Shown: piece by piece, positions 3-11,584 of the stretch
Layout: each line of letters opens with the position of its first letter
How positions within the stretch are numbered: the first letter of the stretch is position 1
IMG/VR virus record: IMGVR_UViG_3300042508_000666
Coordinates: 1 to 26,051 of that record
Length of the DNA: 26,051 nt
Direction: 5' to 3' (one strand)
From: a virus
Position numbers and translations under genes: made by a program
The notes under the pieces: model-generated
Databases searched by the model: none
Seen by the model: the letters and a program-made list of their open reading frames with translations, nothing else
What the model was told of the DNA's origin: nothing

Positions 3-749
3 AACCTGGACCGATACCAGATCGGCCTCACCACATTCACAAGCGCTGACAATTTTGATCCCAAGGTTCAAGAATCCGAGCGAATCAGTTTTAGAAACGC
101 AGTCAGAAAAGTTCCAAACCTCGCAGTCGCCCGCGTCACCGAATCCAGCGGGCTCTACGGGGGAACGCTGGAGCCGACTTTCGATGTCGAATTCAGCGTC
201 CAGCGCGATGCCAAGATCGATTCGCAAAACTACCTTGAGCCAACCATCCGAGAAGCCCTCGCCATCGCAGACCGACGCGGGCAGATCGATGTGCTCACAT
301 CGCTCGTTGTAGATATCGATCACCCAAACGCACGGCCCATGGTCGAGATTGGTTTTAAATCACCGGCCAAGCCCGCCGAGATAGACGCCGTCGTCGAAGC
401 ATTCAAAGCAAACGGCATCGACGGCTTCACTATAGCAAAAAACGAACGCGGCGATGTGCTCGGGCTTCGCTCCCAGTATGTGCCAGAAATCTCTGCCCGC
501 TATGACACGCTGGACCATTTGGATCCTGCAAAATTTGTGCAGAATTCAGTTGCTTGGAATAACAACTCGCGAGCAGCACTTGCACAAATTCAAAATATCG
601 ACAATGTTAGTTACAGAAAGGAAGGATATGTCTCCTCTGCAATCTATGGAAAAGAAGAATACCGAACCGTCAACCCCGTTGACCTTCGCCGAAGCAATGC
701 GGCAAATGAACTGGGGCGCCGGAGATCGATCCTTAGCCCCGGATCCTAA
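3..749 (+). CDS. 3' end of a large phage protein of unknown function (5' partial)
   Basis: An open frame enters from the left edge (reading begins at base 3) and runs without a stop for 248 codons to the stop at 747-749, so this is the C-terminal part of a longer protein. An internal GTG at 291 is unlikely to be the real start because the upstream codons look equally protein-like. I see no catalytic motif, signal peptide or membrane segment. The segment is soluble, charged and mixed alpha/beta in character, and its tail is polar with a run NNNSR near codon 190. Its place at the end of a rightward transcript, next to a terminator and the integrase, suggests the last late gene of a circular phage map. 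Very long polyvalent or virion-ejected proteins often sit there. That assignment is inference; function unknown. Confidence 0.75.
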   Translation, partial: NLDRYQIGLTTFTSADNFDPKVQESERISFRNAVRKVPNLAVARVTESSGLYGGTLEPTFDVEFSVQRDAKIDSQNYLEPTIREALAIADRRGQIDVLTSLVVDIDHPNARPMVEIGFKSPAKPAEIDAVVEAFKANGIDGFTIAKNERGDVLGLRSQYVPEISARYDTLDHLDPAKFVQNSVAWNNNSRAALAQIQNIDNVSYRKEGYVSSAIYGKEEYRTVNPVDLRRSNAANELGRRRSILSPGS

Positions 750-900: not shown

Positions 901-1894
901 ATAACCCCCAAAACCTCTCCGCCTCCGCTTGCCGGACTGCCCGAGCATAGGTTTTGTTCACCATCTGCGGCGACGAGTGCCCAAGGAAAAACGCCGTCTT
1001 CCCCGCATCCTGCCACATTGCCAAGTGCATCGAGGCCGCTGTGTGGCGCAAACAATTCTGCGGCCACTCTTCCCATCCCATTTCCTCAGCCAATGCCGTG
1101 CGTGAACGCTTGATGGAACTTTCCTCCAGGCAGTCCCATTTCTTCGGCAGATGCCGAGTCAATGCCGGCAAGATCGGCACATAGCGCTTCCTCGGCACCG
1201 GATCAGTGGACTTGATCCTTGGCACTAAAATCTCTGTCGCCTCCACATGGTCAGGCACACAGCCCGCCACCTCGCTCATCCGCATCCCTCCAAAGACCCC
1301 CAGCACCAACCAAGCCCGCAGCCGGTCATCCTCCACCGTCAACTCCAGCAGCCGCTTCACATCCGAGACCGCCAACAAGTGATGCTGCGCCGTCTTCCTC
1401 GGCACCTCCGCCTTCAACACCGGCGACTTCTCGATGTAGTCGTAACGAACAAGCCAATTAAAAAACAACCGCAGGTAAACATAGCCCTGCGCCCGCGTCG
1501 TCCCGCTCCATCCCTTCCGGCCGAGGAACGCATCAATCGTGCGTGCCGACACCGCCCCCAAGTCCAGACAGCCAAACTTCTCGGCAAACTCATCCAACCA
1601 CCATTTCACCAACCGCAGGTGATTTCCCCGCAGAGTCCCTTGCCTCGCCGCCAAGAAATCCTTTATCCCCTTCGACACCGTCATCCCCTTCGCATTCTTA
1701 AAAGAATCCGTCCCCTGCCGGGACAACTGCTCCAAGGTATGCTGCCGAGCCTGCTCCGCCTCCCCCCAGCTCGCAAAAAAACGCCGCTCCACCTTCCCCC
1801 CAATCCGCCGCCTCAACCGCCAAACTTTTTTTCCCCTTAAAACGAACTCCGTCACCGTCACCGACACACTTTCCGTCTCAATATGTTTTTTCAT
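899..1894 (-). CDS. int: phage tyrosine recombinase (integrase)
   Basis: 331 aa. It catalyses site-specific integration and excision between phage attP and a bacterial tRNA attachment site. Residues 1-70 form a short basic, strand-rich arm-binding-like region, 72-160 the SAM-like core-binding domain, and 172-331 the catalytic domain. Catalytic residues visible: R205 in GGMRMSEV, K228 in the PRIKSTDP hairpin, R283 in LRHTAAS, H306 in FLGHSS and nucleophile Y316 in KTYARAV. The position that is usually His in the HxxR box is Asn280 (N-C-L-R), a tolerated substitution in some phage integrases. The gene reads leftward with its start next to the attP region. Repeats TGTTGCCAC lie only 12 nt upstream of the start, so integrase may regulate its own promoter. 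The downstream terminator separates it from the convergent operon. Confidence 0.95.
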   Translation of the reverse strand: MKKHIETESVSVTVTEFVLRGKKVWRLRRRIGGKVERRFFASWGEAEQARQHTLEQLSRQGTDSFKNAKGMTVSKGIKDFLAARQGTLRGNHLRLVKWWLDEFAEKFGCLDLGAVSARTIDAFLGRKGWSGTTRAQGYVYLRLFFNWLVRYDYIEKSPVLKAEVPRKTAQHHLLAVSDVKRLLELTVEDDRLRAWLVLGVFGGMRMSEVAGCVPDHVEATEILVPRIKSTDPVPRKRYVPILPALTRHLPKKWDCLEESSIKRSRTALAEEMGWEEWPQNCLRHTAASMHLAMWQDAGKTAFFLGHSSPQMVNKTYARAVRQAEAERFWGL

Positions 1895-1905
1895 GTTGCT
1901 CTATC

Positions 1906-2146
1906 TGTTGCCACCGTTGCCATGGAAAAGCAATTTTTAAGAAACAAGTGGCAACAAGTAGCACCAACCAACAACACGACCAAAAACCCCGCAGACCCAG
2001 TAAAAAAGCACCTCTCCAGCCGTATCACCTTGATAAAAAGAGAGAGCCGACGACGGGATTTGAACCCGTGACCTATCGATTACGAATCGTGTTTTCTGCC
2101 ATTGGTTAGCAATAGGTTATGGCGTGTGTTGCCACACTGTTGCCAC
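1906..2146. repeat. integrase arm-type repeats TGTTGCCAC
   Basis: Perfect copies at 1906-1914, 2127-2135 and 2138-2146, a perfect inverted copy (GTGGCAACA) at 1948-1956, and a 7/9 copy at 1915-1923. Spacing of adjacent copies is 9 bp on the left and 11 bp on the right, about one helical turn. The pattern fits binding sites for the integrase N-terminal arm-binding domain or for an accessory excision protein. The assignment to integrase is inferred from position. Confidence 0.72.
2044..2090 (-). other. attP core: 3' half of tRNA-Thr(CGT)
   Basis: Read on the minus strand, this 47-bp segment contains an anticodon loop TTCGTAA (anticodon CGT, threonine), a variable region, a T-arm with GGTTCAAATCC in the loop, and the 3' acceptor strand CGTCGGC with discriminator T and no encoded CCA. 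Upstream, where the 5' half of a tRNA would be, no GCCGACG acceptor strand and no proper D-arm are present, and the anticodon stem can form only three pairs. It is therefore not a functional tRNA. It is the piece a phage carries to restore the host tRNA 3' end on integration. The predicted bacterial attB is a tRNA-Thr(CGT) gene. Confidence 0.85.
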
Positions 2147-2154
2147 GGCAGGCG

Positions 2155-2553
2155 TTATTTTTGCGAGAGGGTGAGGGGTTTGGGGTTGGGGTAGAGGTGG
2201 GCGTGGGGGTGGATGAAGGCGACTTTTTGCGGGGGGGTGGAGGTGGTGAAAAAATGTTGTTCCTGGGAGGTGCCGTCCCAGAAGCGGGCTCGGATGATTT
2301 GGACGGGGTTGCCGTTGAGGGGCCAGCCTCCTTGGTAGCAGCGCTTGAGTTCGACGACGCAGGGGGTGATGCCGACGACATCGCCGTTGAGGTCGATCAT
2401 GGCGCCGTAGGGGAGGGTGTGGATTTCGACGGTGCGGTCGCTGTGCTTGGCTTCCCAGGCGCGTTTGCTGGCCTCGAGGTCGATGGTGCTGCTGGGGGTG
2501 GCGCAGCCGCTGAGGAGTAGGGCGAAAGCGAGGAGCAGCGGAGCGGTTTTCAT
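2155..2553 (-). CDS. small lipoprotein with PEGA-like domain
   Basis: 132 aa from ATG 2553. I prefer this start over an upstream in-frame one because it directly begins a lipoprotein signal peptide: MKTAPLLLAFALLLSGC, hydrophobic core and lipobox LSGC with Cys17 as the lipid-anchored residue. The mature part has a polar linker and then a strand-rich segment with YGAMIDLNGDVVGITPCVV, which resembles the PEGA carbohydrate/surface-associated fold (P-x-GA-x-V-x-x-NG-x-x-x-G-x-TP). The start codon overlaps the stop of the upstream membrane-protein gene (ATGA), indicating translational coupling. It lies in the leftward, lysogeny-side transcript with a DNA-binding regulator, so it is a candidate lysogenic-conversion or superinfection-exclusion factor. 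That role is inference. Confidence 0.82.
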   Translation of the reverse strand: MKTAPLLLAFALLLSGCATPSSTIDLEASKRAWEAKHSDRTVEIHTLPYGAMIDLNGDVVGITPCVVELKRCYQGGWPLNGNPVQIIRARFWDGTSQEQHFFTTSTPPQKVAFIHPHAHLYPNPKPLTLSQK

Positions 2554-2828
2554 TTTTGTTTTTCTAAAAGGGCGTCGTATTCTTTTTGGTGCCGCTCTTG
2601 TCTTTCTTTTCGATACCAATCGAATTCTGAATAGTAGATTTCTTCCTCAAGATCGCTGCGGAGTTTTTGGTTTTTTTGCAGTAGGGGCTGGATGACAAAT
2701 AATGCGAGCAGGCTGGAGGCGGTCAGGAGACCTTGCAGGAAATGGAGGGCAGTGCTCGAACTGCCGACGGTAAAGAAGAGAAGGCCGATGGGGGCTATGG
2801 CGAGGAGGAGGATGGTGGTTTTTTTCAT
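2550..2828 (-). CDS. two-helix membrane protein
   Basis: 92 aa from ATG 2828, chosen because it opens a signal-anchor-like sequence MKKTTILLLAIAPIGLLFF. A longer in-frame extension to 2903 would add a basic, non-protein-like stretch overlapping the regulator gene. Two hydrophobic segments are visible at about residues 4-22 and 32-50. They are followed by a long, highly charged amphipathic or coiled-coil tail (about 52-92; rich in E, K, R, Q and Y). The likely topology is a short helical hairpin with a cytoplasmic tail. It is the middle gene of the leftward RHH / membrane protein / lipoprotein operon and overlaps the lipoprotein start by 4 nt. Together the two could form an envelope complex expressed by the prophage. 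No family recognised. Confidence 0.75.
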   Translation of the reverse strand: MKKTTILLLAIAPIGLLFFTVGSSSTALHFLQGLLTASSLLALFVIQPLLQKNQKLRSDLEEEIYYSEFDWYRKERQERHQKEYDALLEKQK

Positions 2829-7813: not shown

Positions 7814-8244
7814 GATTATTTATAGGAATAGACCCCGGCATCAACGGCGGCATCGCGTTCATCCCAAGCACCGGAGACCCTTGGGCGCACAAGATGCCTG
7901 AGACGGACAAGGATTTGATGGAGCTCCTGCGGGATTCCATCAACATCGCCACGCCGAAAGCGCTCATCGAGCTGGTCCATTCCTCGCCGCAAATGGGTGT
8001 CAAGTCGGCGTTTACTTTTGGTGAGGGCTACGGCCGTTTGCAGATGGCACTGACGGCGCTTGGCATCCCCTACGAGCGCATCAGGCCCGCCATGTGGCAG
8101 AAGGCAATGGGCTGCCTCACCAAAGGAGACAAGAATGTCTCGAAGAGCAGGGCACAGGAGCTTTTCCCCTCCATAAAGGTCACGCATGCCATTGCAGATG
8201 CTCTCCTCATAGCCGAGCACAACCGCAGAACGGCGAAGGAATAG
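7810..8244 (+). CDS. RuvC-like Holliday-junction resolvase
   Basis: 144 aa from ATG 7810 (overlapping the previous stop; an upstream in-frame start has no ribosome site). The RNase H-like fold is visible: the first strand has D8 in IGIDPG, the second E54 in ALIELVHSS, and the C-terminal helix H126 and D130 in HAIADALLIAEH. These four acidic or His positions are the metal-binding set of the RuvC family. Length is near the usual for RuvC (about 150-170 aa), slightly short. It cuts four-way junctions and branched DNA formed in recombination and packaging. The stop lies 2 nt before the dual-frame methyltransferase locus. Confidence 0.85.
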   Translation: MRLFIGIDPGINGGIAFIPSTGDPWAHKMPETDKDLMELLRDSINIATPKALIELVHSSPQMGVKSAFTFGEGYGRLQMALTALGIPYERIRPAMWQKAMGCLTKGDKNVSKSRAQELFPSIKVTHAIADALLIAEHNRRTAKE

Positions 8245-8246
8245 AA

Positions 8247-9869
8247 ATGTGGATACTACCAAAACAATTACACACCTCGGACTTTGTGCCGGATACGGCG
8301 GCATTGAGCTTGGACTCCACCGAGTTATCCGAAATCTGCGCACGGTCGCTCTTTGTGAGATCGAAGCCTTCGCCTGCGCGAACTTGGTCGCAAAAATGGA
8401 AGCGGGACTCATGGACTGCGCTCCTATATGGACGAATCTTAAATCCTTCCCATGGGCAGAGTTTCGTGACCGCGTGGACATCCTCACTGGGGGCTATCCC
8501 TGCCAACCATTCAGCGCAGCCGGAAAGCGCCTCGGCACAGACGACCCTCGCCACCTCTGGCCTTTTATCGCAGACGGAATTCGGATTCTGCGACCCCGAC
8601 TATGCTTCTTTGAGAATGTCGAAGGACACATCAGCCTCGGACTCCGAGAAGTCATTGGAGAGCTGGAATCAATCGGTTACAAAGCGGCGTGGGGAATATT
8701 CAGCGCGGCTGAAGTCGGCGCACCGCACCAGCGCAAGCGGGTGTTCATCCTGGCCATCTCCAATAGCCTCGGAGGTGCGGCAGGGCTTCCAAGATCGCTC
8801 GCGTGGAATGAAGGGGTCGCAGGAGTCGCTGACCACGGTGGTGGTGAAGGATGCGGCGAATTGGCCGACGCCAGCAGCGTCAAACAACGAGCAACCGGAT
8901 TATCGTCAGCACGCATATGTGGATGCCGGATTCAAGAGCAAGAACGAATACAGCATCAATCTTCCAACTGCGGTGGCGGGAGTCTTGAAGTATGGCCAAG
9001 CCGCCCCGGCCAACCCCAGCACGGATGGGAGCCGCCAAGGGTTGTGGCCAACGATCACCGCTCACACGCCAGACATGGAGAGCAGCGGCCCGAACGGGAA
9101 CTCGGGGACTTATCTGGCGGGTGCGGTGAAGGCAGAGGAGAACTGGGTGACTCCACGCACCAGCGGGACATCAACGAGACCGAACAAGACCACTCCGAGG
9201 CAGGGGTTGACACTGATCGAGCAAGCGAGGGAGCAGGAGAAGTTGTGGCGAACTCCGTCCGTAGCAGAGGAGAAGAACCAGAACACTTCAACGCAAATCT
9301 ACCTTCAGAACCAAGTAGGGGCGACTCCGAAGGCGTGGGCAACGCCGATAATGGGCGACTCGCATCTGGCATCGACGCCGGAAGTAGCACAGAAGCGGAT
9401 CGAGGAGGGCAAAGTGACATTGAGCAGGCAGATAGCGGCGCAATGGGCAACGCCAAACACGATGGATTGTCTTCCGAGCAGATCATACGAAGCGATGAAG
9501 CGACAAGCCACGAATGGGCAAAGAAAGAATCGCACCAAGCCAGGCAACTTGAGGGAGCAGATCGACCCATTGATGTGCCAAGCATACAAGGATGCGCAAG
9601 CGCAAGCGAATCAATGGGGCACACCAACAGCACGCGACCACAAGAGCGGCAGGGGCAACGAGGAGCGGGAATACAAGGAATTGACTCCGATGGTGGAGAG
9701 GACGCAGACGGGAAAATTAAACCCGCGTTGGGTCGAGACGCTGATGGGTCTGCCGGTTGGCTGGGTTATGCCGAGCTGCAAGTCTCCTGTGACAATCGAA
9801 CCGACGAACTACGCCTGCTCGGCAACGGAGTCGTGCCTGCCACAGCCGAGCGAGCTTTTCGCGTTTTAA
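8247..9869 (+). CDS. overprinted ORF: W-x-[TS]-P repeat protein (540 aa)
   Basis: A second frame, open from ATG 8247 (2 nt before the methyltransferase GTG) to the stop at 9867-9869, shares the same ribosome site AAGGA. It has 540 codons. The N-terminal third is rich in S, T, W and R, with SKPSPARTWSQKWKRDSWTA at codons about 33-52. From codon 169 on, eight units start with W-x-[TS]-P at codons 169, 206, 267, 300, 334, 364, 400 and 457. Each is followed, 15-45 residues later, by a hydrophobic helix-like stretch. The end has LNPRWVETLMGLPVGW. I recall closely similar W-P-T-P/LNPxWVE protein sequences in phage genomes near cytosine methyltransferases, but I cannot search. It may be a real overprinted protein, a conserved shadow of the methyltransferase, or the true recognition region joined by frameshifting. 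Confidence 0.5.
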   Translation: MWILPKQLHTSDFVPDTAALSLDSTELSEICARSLFVRSKPSPARTWSQKWKRDSWTALLYGRILNPSHGQSFVTAWTSSLGAIPANHSAQPESASAQTTLATSGLLSQTEFGFCDPDYASLRMSKDTSASDSEKSLESWNQSVTKRRGEYSARLKSAHRTSASGCSSWPSPIASEVRQGFQDRSRGMKGSQESLTTVVVKDAANWPTPAASNNEQPDYRQHAYVDAGFKSKNEYSINLPTAVAGVLKYGQAAPANPSTDGSRQGLWPTITAHTPDMESSGPNGNSGTYLAGAVKAEENWVTPRTSGTSTRPNKTTPRQGLTLIEQAREQEKLWRTPSVAEEKNQNTSTQIYLQNQVGATPKAWATPIMGDSHLASTPEVAQKRIEEGKVTLSRQIAAQWATPNTMDCLPSRSYEAMKRQATNGQRKNRTKPGNLREQIDPLMCQAYKDAQAQANQWGTPTARDHKSGRGNEEREYKELTPMVERTQTGKLNPRWVETLMGLPVGWVMPSCKSPVTIEPTNYACSATESCLPQPSELFAF

Positions 9870-9886
9870 TAGAAGAACTTATTTAA
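8249..9886 (+). CDS. DNA cytosine-C5 methyltransferase
   Basis: 545 aa from GTG 8249, with ribosome site AAGGA at 8236-8240. It transfers a methyl group from S-adenosylmethionine to C5 of cytosine, for example to protect phage DNA from restriction. Motifs in order: SAM-binding GLCAGYGGIELG (11-22); an acidic CEIEAFA segment (36-42); the catalytic PCQPFS (84-89, nucleophile C85); ENV (122-124); QRKR (161-164); and, far downstream, GNGVVP (525-530) in the last helix region. The interval of about 350 residues between QRKR and GNGVVP is much longer than usual, low in complexity, polar and built of degenerate units such as ELADAS, VVANDH, ELGDST and SMGHTN. The target-recognition region should lie there. 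The gene overlaps almost all of another ORF (8247-9869) and shares 1 nt with the next gene. Confidence 0.9.
   Translation: MDTTKTITHLGLCAGYGGIELGLHRVIRNLRTVALCEIEAFACANLVAKMEAGLMDCAPIWTNLKSFPWAEFRDRVDILTGGYPCQPFSAAGKRLGTDDPRHLWPFIADGIRILRPRLCFFENVEGHISLGLREVIGELESIGYKAAWGIFSAAEVGAPHQRKRVFILAISNSLGGAAGLPRSLAWNEGVAGVADHGGGEGCGELADASSVKQRATGLSSARICGCRIQEQERIQHQSSNCGGGSLEVWPSRPGQPQHGWEPPRVVANDHRSHARHGEQRPERELGDLSGGCGEGRGELGDSTHQRDINETEQDHSEAGVDTDRASEGAGEVVANSVRSRGEEPEHFNANLPSEPSRGDSEGVGNADNGRLASGIDAGSSTEADRGGQSDIEQADSGAMGNAKHDGLSSEQIIRSDEATSHEWAKKESHQARQLEGADRPIDVPSIQGCASASESMGHTNSTRPQERQGQRGAGIQGIDSDGGEDADGKIKPALGRDADGSAGWLGYAELQVSCDNRTDELRLLGNGVVPATAERAFRVLIEELI
8751..9626 (+). repeat. eight dual-frame repeat units in the methyltransferase locus
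   Basis: TGG codons of the second frame stand at 8751, 8862, 9045, 9144, 9246, 9336, 9444 and 9615. Gaps are 111, 183, 99, 102, 90, 108 and 171 nt, all multiples of 3. The core DNA is [TC]TGG-[CG]N-[AG]-C-[GT]-CC, for example TTGGCCGACGCCA at 8861-8873. In frame 8249 the same DNA reads LADA, VVAND, ELGDS, VVANS, GVGNA, AMGNA and SMGHT; in frame 8247 it reads WPTP, WPTI, WVTP, WRTP, WATP, WATP and WGTP. Register between the two frames never changes across the array. Confidence 0.85.
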
Positions 9887-11394
9887 TGCAATACCCCGAA
9901 AAAGAGAGCGCCGTCGTCGGCTATATTAGTGTGGCTGGCTTCGCCGGCGTGCCGAAGTCGGCTGTGGTCGAGCCGGAGGCATTCAGCTCAACACTGAATG
10001 GGCTCTACTACGCCGCTGCGCACCGGCTCCACCACGCTGGCAAGGCTGTAGTCGGCACGACGCTCATCGAAGCCATTGAGCGGGAGCCGTATTGGCTGAG
10101 GCTCGCCGAGACCGAGGCGAAGGCCGCTGGCATGGTGTCGTGGCAGGATGGTGTGGTGCTGGCGGACACTTCGTTGGCATTCAACCCAGCGGGCGGTGCC
10201 ATCATTGCCGAATACTTGGCCGACATTTCCTCAGCCTCGAACCACCGCAAAGCAACCCGAATAGGCCGGAATCTGGCAGATGGCAGCATGCCTGTGGCTG
10301 AAGCGCTCGAGGAACTGAAACTCCTGGCGAAGCCGAAGTCGGCCATGGTGGGCGTGGAGATGCATACCTTTGAGCAACTCTGGGAATACAAGGCCGAGGA
10401 TGATTCCAGCACGCTGGTGGGGAACCGCTGGCTGTGCCGTGGCGGCCAGCTCCTACTCCTCGGGCAGTCGGGCATTGGCAAATCCTCCTACACACTCCAG
10501 CAGGCGATGACCTGGGCGCTGGGCATGCCGTTCTTTGGCATGAAGCCCAAGCACAAGCTCAAGTGCCTGATCGTCCAAGCTGAGAACGATATGGGCGACA
10601 TGGCCGAGGTAGTGCAAGGCGTGATGTCCTATGTCGTCGCGCAAAGTAAGATGACGCAGCGCGAGGCGGTGGATATCCTGCGGGAGAATGTGATCGTGGC
10701 TCGGGTCACAGCACAGACCGGCGAAGCATTCATCGAGGTGATCCGCGAGCTCATCGTCAAGCACGGTCCGTTTGACCTGGTCTATGGGGATCCGCTGCTG
10801 TCATTCATCGGCGACGACATTTCCCAGCAGGCTGTGGCCAGTCACTTCCTGCGCGAGCTGTGCAACCCGCTGGCCTTCGAGCATGGCTTCGCATGGGTAT
10901 GGAGCCACCACACCGGCAAGCCACAATCGGACAGCAAGAGCCGGGCGCATTGGAATGCGAATGACTACGCATACATCGGCCTCGGCTCATCGGAGCTAAC
11001 AAACTGGGCACGCGCCATCTGTGTGCTCCAGACGACGAAGCATGAAGGAATCTTCAAGGTTCTCCTGGCGAAGCGTGGCAACCGCGCCGCTGTTGTAGAC
11101 GAACACGGCCACCCGACCACGGACATCATCATCAAGCACGCTGACAAGGGACTGCACTGGGAAGTCGCAGAACTCCCCGAGGAAACCCAAGAAGAGGGCA
11201 AGCCACAAGGTAAGTCCGGCAGGCCGTCCGCCCTCACCGCCGTGCAAGAACTCGAGATCGTGACCATGCACGCCAAATGGCCAGAGAACAGCCGGGGGTT
11301 CTATTCCACCGCTATGAGCAAATACAAGGTCTCTCACGACACCATCAAGCGGGTCTTAAACAAGCACACTCACCCACAGAAAGCCGCCGCATAG
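9886..11394 (+). CDS. RepA/DnaB-like replicative ATPase
   Basis: 502 aa, start sharing one base with the methyltransferase stop (TAATG). Residues 1-150 resemble the helical DnaB N-terminal domain (ESAVVGYIS...LYYAAAHRLHHAGKAVVG). The ATPase core follows: Walker A GQSGIGKS at 193-200, VQAEND near 230-235, Walker B VYGDPLLS with D302, and a helicase-like SHHTGK segment after it. The last 70 residues form a probable winged-helix DNA-binding tail (ALTAVQELEIVTMHA...YKVSHDTIKRVL). This is the plan of AAA_25/RepA-type hexameric ATPases used by phages and plasmids as replicative helicases or loaders. The iteron cluster begins about 15 nt after the stop, so the protein probably acts at that origin. 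Confidence 0.82.
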   Translation: MQYPEKESAVVGYISVAGFAGVPKSAVVEPEAFSSTLNGLYYAAAHRLHHAGKAVVGTTLIEAIEREPYWLRLAETEAKAAGMVSWQDGVVLADTSLAFNPAGGAIIAEYLADISSASNHRKATRIGRNLADGSMPVAEALEELKLLAKPKSAMVGVEMHTFEQLWEYKAEDDSSTLVGNRWLCRGGQLLLLGQSGIGKSSYTLQQAMTWALGMPFFGMKPKHKLKCLIVQAENDMGDMAEVVQGVMSYVVAQSKMTQREAVDILRENVIVARVTAQTGEAFIEVIRELIVKHGPFDLVYGDPLLSFIGDDISQQAVASHFLRELCNPLAFEHGFAWVWSHHTGKPQSDSKSRAHWNANDYAYIGLGSSELTNWARAICVLQTTKHEGIFKVLLAKRGNRAAVVDEHGHPTTDIIIKHADKGLHWEVAELPEETQEEGKPQGKSGRPSALTAVQELEIVTMHAKWPENSRGFYSTAMSKYKVSHDTIKRVLNKHTHPQKAAA

Positions 11395-11408
11395 ATATGT
11401 TTTTACTA

Positions 11409-11584
11409 CCTCCGCAAAACCTCCGCAAAACCTCCGCAATATTCCAATTCTGCGGAGCATGGATGACCTCCGCAAAATTACCTCCGCAAAATCCCCCTAA
11501 GAAGGGGGGATTGTTTTGCGGAGGAGTAATTTTTCGGAGGGGTCATTTCCAACCATCGAAATCCGCAAAATAGATTATGCGGAG
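11409..11584. repeat. iteron-like CCTCCGCAAAA cluster, candidate replication origin
   Basis: Two perfect direct copies of CCTCCGCAAAA (11409-11419, 11420-11430) and a third with one change (11431-11441) are tandem with an 11-bp period. Two more perfect copies lie at 11467-11477 and 11481-11491, and a perfect inverted copy TTTTGCGGAGG at 11514-11524. Partial copies TGCGGAG (11451-11457), ATCCGCAAAA (11561-11570) and ATGCGGAG (11577-11584) flank these. The last also serves as ribosome site of the next gene. Position right behind the helicase-like gene fits a phage origin with iterons. An alternative is a transcriptional operator array. Confidence 0.75.
11481..11524. other. large hairpin inside the iteron cluster
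   Basis: The fifth iteron (11481-11491) and the inverted copy (11514-11524) form an 11-bp stem. Inside it TCCCCC (11492-11497) pairs with GGGGGA (11505-11510), leaving a loop of 7 bases (TAAGAAG) and a 3-base bulge. The inner stem followed by TTGTTTT could also act as a terminator for the helicase transcript in the plus direction. The outer iteron stem suggests instead, or in addition, a cruciform used in origin melting. Confidence 0.7.

Follow-up and report, generated by a model that had tools for sequence, protein, structure and literature searches.

A probable attP with a tRNA-Thr(CGT) core in a temperate phage of Verrucomicrobiota

A segment of a tRNA gene lying between repeated 9-mers, next to a gene for an integrase, raises the question of whether a phage carries there its own attachment site, or whether the sequence is the border of a prophage or the remnant of a tRNA gene. 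We addressed this question in a linear IMG/VR contig of 26,051 bases (the whole of IMGVR_UViG_3300042508_000666, positions 1 to 26,051), hereafter referred to as the window. Comparisons with related viral contigs and bacterial genomes indicate that positions 1894-2146 very probably form a complete attP in its unintegrated state, belonging to a temperate phage of Verrucomicrobiota that targets the tRNA-Thr(CGT) gene of the host (table 1). The site is of the canonical type centred on the anticodon. Its arrangement is well known, and the finding of an attP, while correct, is ordinary in kind; what we add is the host group, a little-studied one, and a set of informative natural variants.

Table 1. 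Position and strand of the features in and around the predicted attP, with the basis of each assignment.
Feature	Position	Strand	Basis
Phage ORF of unassigned function, downstream of int and convergent with it	3..749	+	92-95% identical in L006 and L014 at the same place
int, tyrosine integrase, 331 aa	899..1894	-	PHROG integrase, E 8.8e-33; conserved residues; N-terminal fold; Foldseek
Degenerate arm-type site AGAGCAACA, abutting the int start codon (base 1894 shared)	1894..1902	-	Repeat comparison
Arm-type site GTGGCAACA, int-proximal (P) arm	1906..1914	-	Repeat count
Degenerate arm-type site ATGGCAACG, int-proximal (P) arm	1915..1923	-	Kept in L002, L003 and the G001 prophage
Inverted arm-type copy, GTGGCAACA on +	1948..1956	+	Shared with L002; altered by mutation in L003; not in other lineages
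attP core, 3' half of tRNA-Thr(CGT)	2044..2089	-	46/46 match to G310 tRNA; T-stem covariation over 9 alleles
Arm-type site GTGGCAACA, distal (P') arm, -43 from core	2127..2135	-	-41/-43 position kept in relatives
Arm-type site GTGGCAACA (tRNA orientation), distal (P') arm, -54 from core	2138..2146	-	-52/-54 position kept in relatives
PEGA-like lipoprotein ORF beside the P' arm	2155..2619	-	PEGA, E 0.0034, under the Pfam cut-off; start codon uncertain

Integrase, arm repeats and flanking genes

The gene beside the site had been called int from the sequence alone, and its product is indeed a tyrosine integrase by its match to the PHROG integrase family, its Pfam match being under the cut-off (22.7 vs 27.1 bits). 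Residues R205, K228, R283 and H306 and the nucleophile Y316 are invariant among 17 aligned family members. The first catalytic His of the HxxR motif is replaced by N280, an Asn in all 17 of these proteins (NCLRHT), so that int has the remaining five residues of the RKHRHY set but not the full set. An Asn in the place of this His does not by itself exclude recombinase activity.

In the AlphaFold model of int, strands at residues 11-19, 22-31 and 34-40 are followed by a helix at 43-62, mostly with pLDDT of about 80-90, and we are confident that the domain predicted there (residues 11-62) has the three-strand plus helix (beta3-alpha) architecture of arm-binding domains. A Foldseek search with the model ranked the Int proteins of Tn1549 and lambda at the top, the catalytic half being modelled at low confidence (mean pLDDT 62, pTM 0.43). 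Among named phages we found no good integrase match, the best one showing 33% identity over 44%.

Four copies of the 9-mer TGTTGCCAC are present in the window, all of them within 1906-2146: on the plus strand at 1906-1914, 2127-2135 and 2138-2146, and inverted at 1948-1956. When the region was shuffled 2000 times with its dinucleotides preserved, a single shuffle contained any 9-mer four times. In the orientation of the tRNA, direct repeats are found at -54 and -43 on one side of the core and at +169, +178 and +190 on the other, with the inverted copy at +133. The arm repeats had been described as symmetric in the initial annotation; copies do lie on both sides, but as direct repeats on one short and one long arm. 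The function of the inverted copy is doubtful, given its absence outside the lineage formed by the window, L002 and L003. The spacing of the repeats is conserved: relatives have two copies at -52/-54 and -41/-43 (L005 shows the nearer one only) and, between +146 and +190, a further two or three, up against the start of int. With arms, core and int all present, the complete attP layout proposed from the sequence holds. Elsewhere in the window, the densest 9-mer repeat is CCTCCGCAA, found six times within the 256 bases of 11265-11520.

Left of int, where host genes would mark the border of a prophage, lies instead the gene at 3-749, truncated by the left edge of the contig. The same gene adjoins int in the phages L006 and L014, with 92-95% protein identity, so that no host border exists on this side. 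On the other side of att, homologs of the lipoprotein gene are found in L002, L003, L006, L007 and L014, and also at the attR of the prophage in the bacterial genome G001 described below (38% identity), where the gene would be the terminal one of the prophage and possibly expressed in lysogens.

Two near relatives, G003 (40,363 bp) and G004 (41,850 bp), have phage genes on both sides of att. They are circularly permuted with respect to each other, each being continuous across the end of the other within about 1 kb, and the genome is therefore circular or circularly permuted, with a size of about 40-42 kb. The record, in which no terminal repeat was detected along its 26,051 bases, is a fragment of this genome, roughly 15 kb of which lies outside the window. 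The suggestion of a circular or free genome is supported by these two relatives; the window itself, a linear fragment, does not show circularity.

Two identical prophages arranged in tandem in the same tRNA gene would give a junction that reads exactly as an attP, and a linear record such as this might be a piece of such an integrated array, or contain an attL or attR border. We consider this very improbable. A single circular map of about 40-42 kb, given by G003 and G004, accommodates the sequence left and right of att without any host DNA, and a tandem junction was rejected; moreover, the true border found in G001 has a complete tRNA on the int side, whereas the window does not. The initial annotation, in which the site was not a prophage border, is therefore supported.

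The record is a mosaic in relation to these phages. Left of about position 1000 its DNA is mostly 88-100% identical to that of L006 and L014; beyond about 1100 it resembles G003 and G004 instead (mostly 85-100% identity), the switch being placed inside the 3' end of int. The region 8094-9886 contains a pair of long, overlapping ORFs in different frames, one of 591 aa and the other coding for a DNA methyltransferase of 545 aa, which exceeds the 327 aa of its family by a long insert. Neither G003 nor G004 has the stretch 8236-9881.

The tRNA core and its bacterial counterparts

On the minus strand, the core (2044-2089) reads CGATTCGTAATCGATAGGTCACGGGTTCAAATCCCGTCGTCGGCTC and runs from the anticodon stem and loop through the T-arm and the 3' strand of the acceptor stem to the discriminator T, after which comes a single additional base but no CCA. 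The anticodon loop TTCGTAA is at 2086-2080, with the anticodon CGT at 2084-2082. Neither ARAGORN nor Rfam detected a complete tRNA in the window, as expected with only half a gene present. The tRNA-Thr(CGT) 3' half recognized in the initial annotation is thus confirmed, but not the 47-bp length assigned to it (2044-2090): base 2090 mismatches the bacterial tRNA gene, which leaves an exact core of 46 bp.

Viral contigs yielded 24 relatives of the integrase, and for 23 of them DNA upstream of int is included. All 23 carry the same tRNA half with the same anticodon end point, 180-201 bp before int. Among the nine core alleles, the T-stem is paired in 100% of cells, with A-U/G-C exchanges at two pairs, and the covariation score was reached by none of 500 shuffles. 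Such covariation is expected if each phage half must function within a host tRNA.

A scan of bacterial and archaeal genomes for the integrase family matched two genomes, G001 (a MAG named Chthoniobacter flavus) and G002 (a Terrimicrobiaceae MAG). Both belong, together with G310, to one family (26 genomes) of the Verrucomicrobiota. The hosts of the phage are very probably Terrimicrobiaceae-like Verrucomicrobiota. The tRNA-Thr(CGT) gene of G310 is uninterrupted and identical to the core of the window at 46 of 46 positions; it is flanked by rfbA-like and lpxB-like genes (named by visual inspection of the sequence). The predicted target, a bacterial tRNA-Thr(CGT) gene sharing the core, was thus found in an empty state.

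The occupied state is represented by the prophage of G001, a relative whose attL and attR are on two contigs of the same MAG. Contig C94 contains attL: a glycosidase-like gene of the host comes first, then an intact tRNA-Thr(CGT), the P-arm repeats and an int 76% identical to that of the window, beginning about 150 bp downstream of the tRNA. In attR, on contig C4, a phage lipoprotein gene is followed by P'-arm repeats, the tRNA 3' half and a host gene. C94 is colinear with the window left of the core (int side) and C4 with the window right of it, the prophage making up about 6.5 kb of the first contig and 31.6 kb of the second. The common repeat of attL and attR, 48 bp long and with identical alleles in both, begins its block of identity at the 5' anticodon stem. 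The search for a prophage with matching attL and attR was therefore also successful, and in this relative integration has rebuilt an intact tRNA and displaced the 3' fragment.

In 17 other genomes, no integrase of the family was detected within about 1.5 kb downstream of tRNA-Thr(CGT) (in G404, only 27 bases could be covered). The neighbours of the gene in these genomes were compared with the two host flanks of G001, and none of the 17 had them in common; the empty site is thus that of other species. A discriminator T is present in all 18 host tRNA-Thr(CGT) genes, directly followed by CCA in four. The predicted lack of an encoded CCA accordingly fits this core, G310 and G001, but does not hold throughout the host group.

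A decayed gene would be conceivable in a window with no detectable complete tRNA, and the tRNA piece might then be a relic with no function, or belong to a tRNA gene of the phage itself, rather than a recombination core. This is hardly credible and was rejected, because the same half with the same end point is kept at nearly the same distance from int (180-201 bp) in 23 relatives, its T-stem covaries, and in G001 it forms the attL/attR repeat. Integration might instead break the host tRNA, to be replaced by one encoded by the phage, as in the tRNA-dependent lysogeny known for some mycobacteriophages targeting host tRNA genes, which combine a core of ~10 bp with a phage tRNA gene (PMC10865867), but this has next to no probability here and was likewise rejected, with a core of 46 bp, no tRNA gene within the 26 kb of the window and a rebuilt tRNA in G001. 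With the tRNA half taken as the core of an attP, a matched set of attP, attB, attL and attR is now available for a family of uncultivated Verrucomicrobiota phages, and its host group and integration site can be named.

Variation of arm repeats, N-terminal domains and T-arms

Four types of arm repeats were found in the family (GTGGCAAC, GTGGCACC, GACGCAAC and GTGCCAAC), while the tRNA target is unchanged. The window, L002, L003 and L005 have GTGGCAAC, L004 has GTGGCACC, the L006 and L016 types have GACGCAAC, and in the L009 types the repeat is G(T/A)GCCAAC. Integrases with the same repeat are on average 86% identical (minimum 58) in the N-terminal domain, against 38% for those with different repeats; the corresponding values for the catalytic domain are 83% and 73%.

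Two phages separate the link between repeat and N-terminal domain from simple ancestry. The catalytic domain of L005 is equally distant from all others (62-67%), yet its repeat and N-terminal domain are those of the window group (58-60% identity, compared with 51% to L004 and 31-38% to the rest). In L006, the catalytic half is like that of the window (84%, and 100% at the C-terminus), whereas the N-terminal part and the repeats are of the L016 type. As an exception, the N-terminal domain of L004 is 77% identical to that of the window, yet one base of the repeat is changed. The association is what an exchangeable module for arm specificity would produce, though it is a correlation seen in a small number of lineages.

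In the GACGCAAC-type phages (L006 4534-4573, L016 9962-10001 and L083), the arm repeats fall within the reading frame of int and appear in the protein as MDATDAT..., the P-arm sites of the L006 and L016 types falling in the first int codons. The same bases would there serve as protein code and probable binding site.

Variation is also found within the core. Over int and the flank upstream of it, G003 and G004 are mostly 85-100% identical to the window, yet they have GTATGCGGGTTCGATTCCCGC where the window has AGGTCACGGGTTCAAATCCCGT; the different T-arm of the two closest relatives, noted in L002 and L003 (window 2050-2075), has a 4-base variable loop. No host with this T-arm allele was found in 26 genomes of the family, 147 of the order and 288 of the phylum. 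It may have come from a host outside the sample or by conversion from another tRNA. Its absence from the genomes searched counts against the attP reading, as do the Asn in the HxxR motif and the fact that the integrated example is a relative split over two contigs.

We lean slightly towards the view that arm repeats and N-terminal domain were swapped jointly on a constant tRNA-Thr(CGT) core, and that the T-arm half was also replaced between the window and G003/G004. If so, nature would have provided in these phages a series of swaps in arm specificity at a constant target. The set comprises more than 20 relatives, in which the target is fixed and four types of arm repeat go with types of N-terminal domain; it may be of use in decoding how the arm-binding domains of integrases read DNA.

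Proposed mechanism and comparison with known systems

The standard mechanism of tRNA attP sites accounts for everything seen. The N-terminal domain of the integrase would bind the GTGGCAACA arm sites, and its core-binding and catalytic domains would bind the anticodon stem-loop of the tRNA half, with the anticodon stem providing the core sites and strand exchange probably occurring in the anticodon loop. By recombination of attP with the anticodon region of the single tRNA-Thr(CGT) gene of the host, the phage-borne 3' half would complete the tRNA next to int, giving attL, and the original 3' half would be displaced to the other end, giving attR. A scan of 1850-2200 found no sigma-70-like promoter. 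Since P-arm sites abut the start codon of int, negative autoregulation is likely, with int repressed by its own product through these sites.

Tyrosine integrase sites with 3' tRNA fragments, including anticodon-centred ones (Islander subsite A), have been described in phages and islands (PMC4383910; Williams 2002, as cited in PMC4383910). The present site resembles them in the 3' tRNA fragment adjacent to int, the rebuilding of the tRNA on integration and an attP of about 250 bp, and differs in its target, the tRNA-Thr(CGT) of Verrucomicrobiota. In the literature, we found nothing on Verrucomicrobiota prophages at tRNA-Thr, on such a phage-target pair or on swaps of arm domains.

Common cores of 30-45 bp are known from mycobacteriophage attP sites, such as that of Boilgate at tRNA-Lys (PMC10865867). 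The likeness to such sites includes a core of 43-46 bp that spans the 3' half of a tRNA present in one copy, flanking arm-type sites to the left and right, and a tRNA rebuilt at attL; the integrases of mycobacteriophages are only partially similar, with about 32% identity over 44% of the protein. In KplE1 intS, as here, the tRNA precedes int in the same orientation and arm sites of att overlap the int start. Negative autoregulation was shown for tRNA-int pairs in such an orientation (the STI arrangement; PMC2951348), whereas for the present int it is only suggested by the position of the sites.

With lambda Int, our integrase shares the predicted N-terminal beta3-alpha arm-binding domain, and it may share the core-binding and catalytic domains. 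The lambda attP has a short P' arm, a long P arm and arm sites about 10 bp apart, and the same geometry is found here. The differences from lambda are an arm sequence of its own, a tRNA core and an Asn in the place of the first catalytic His.
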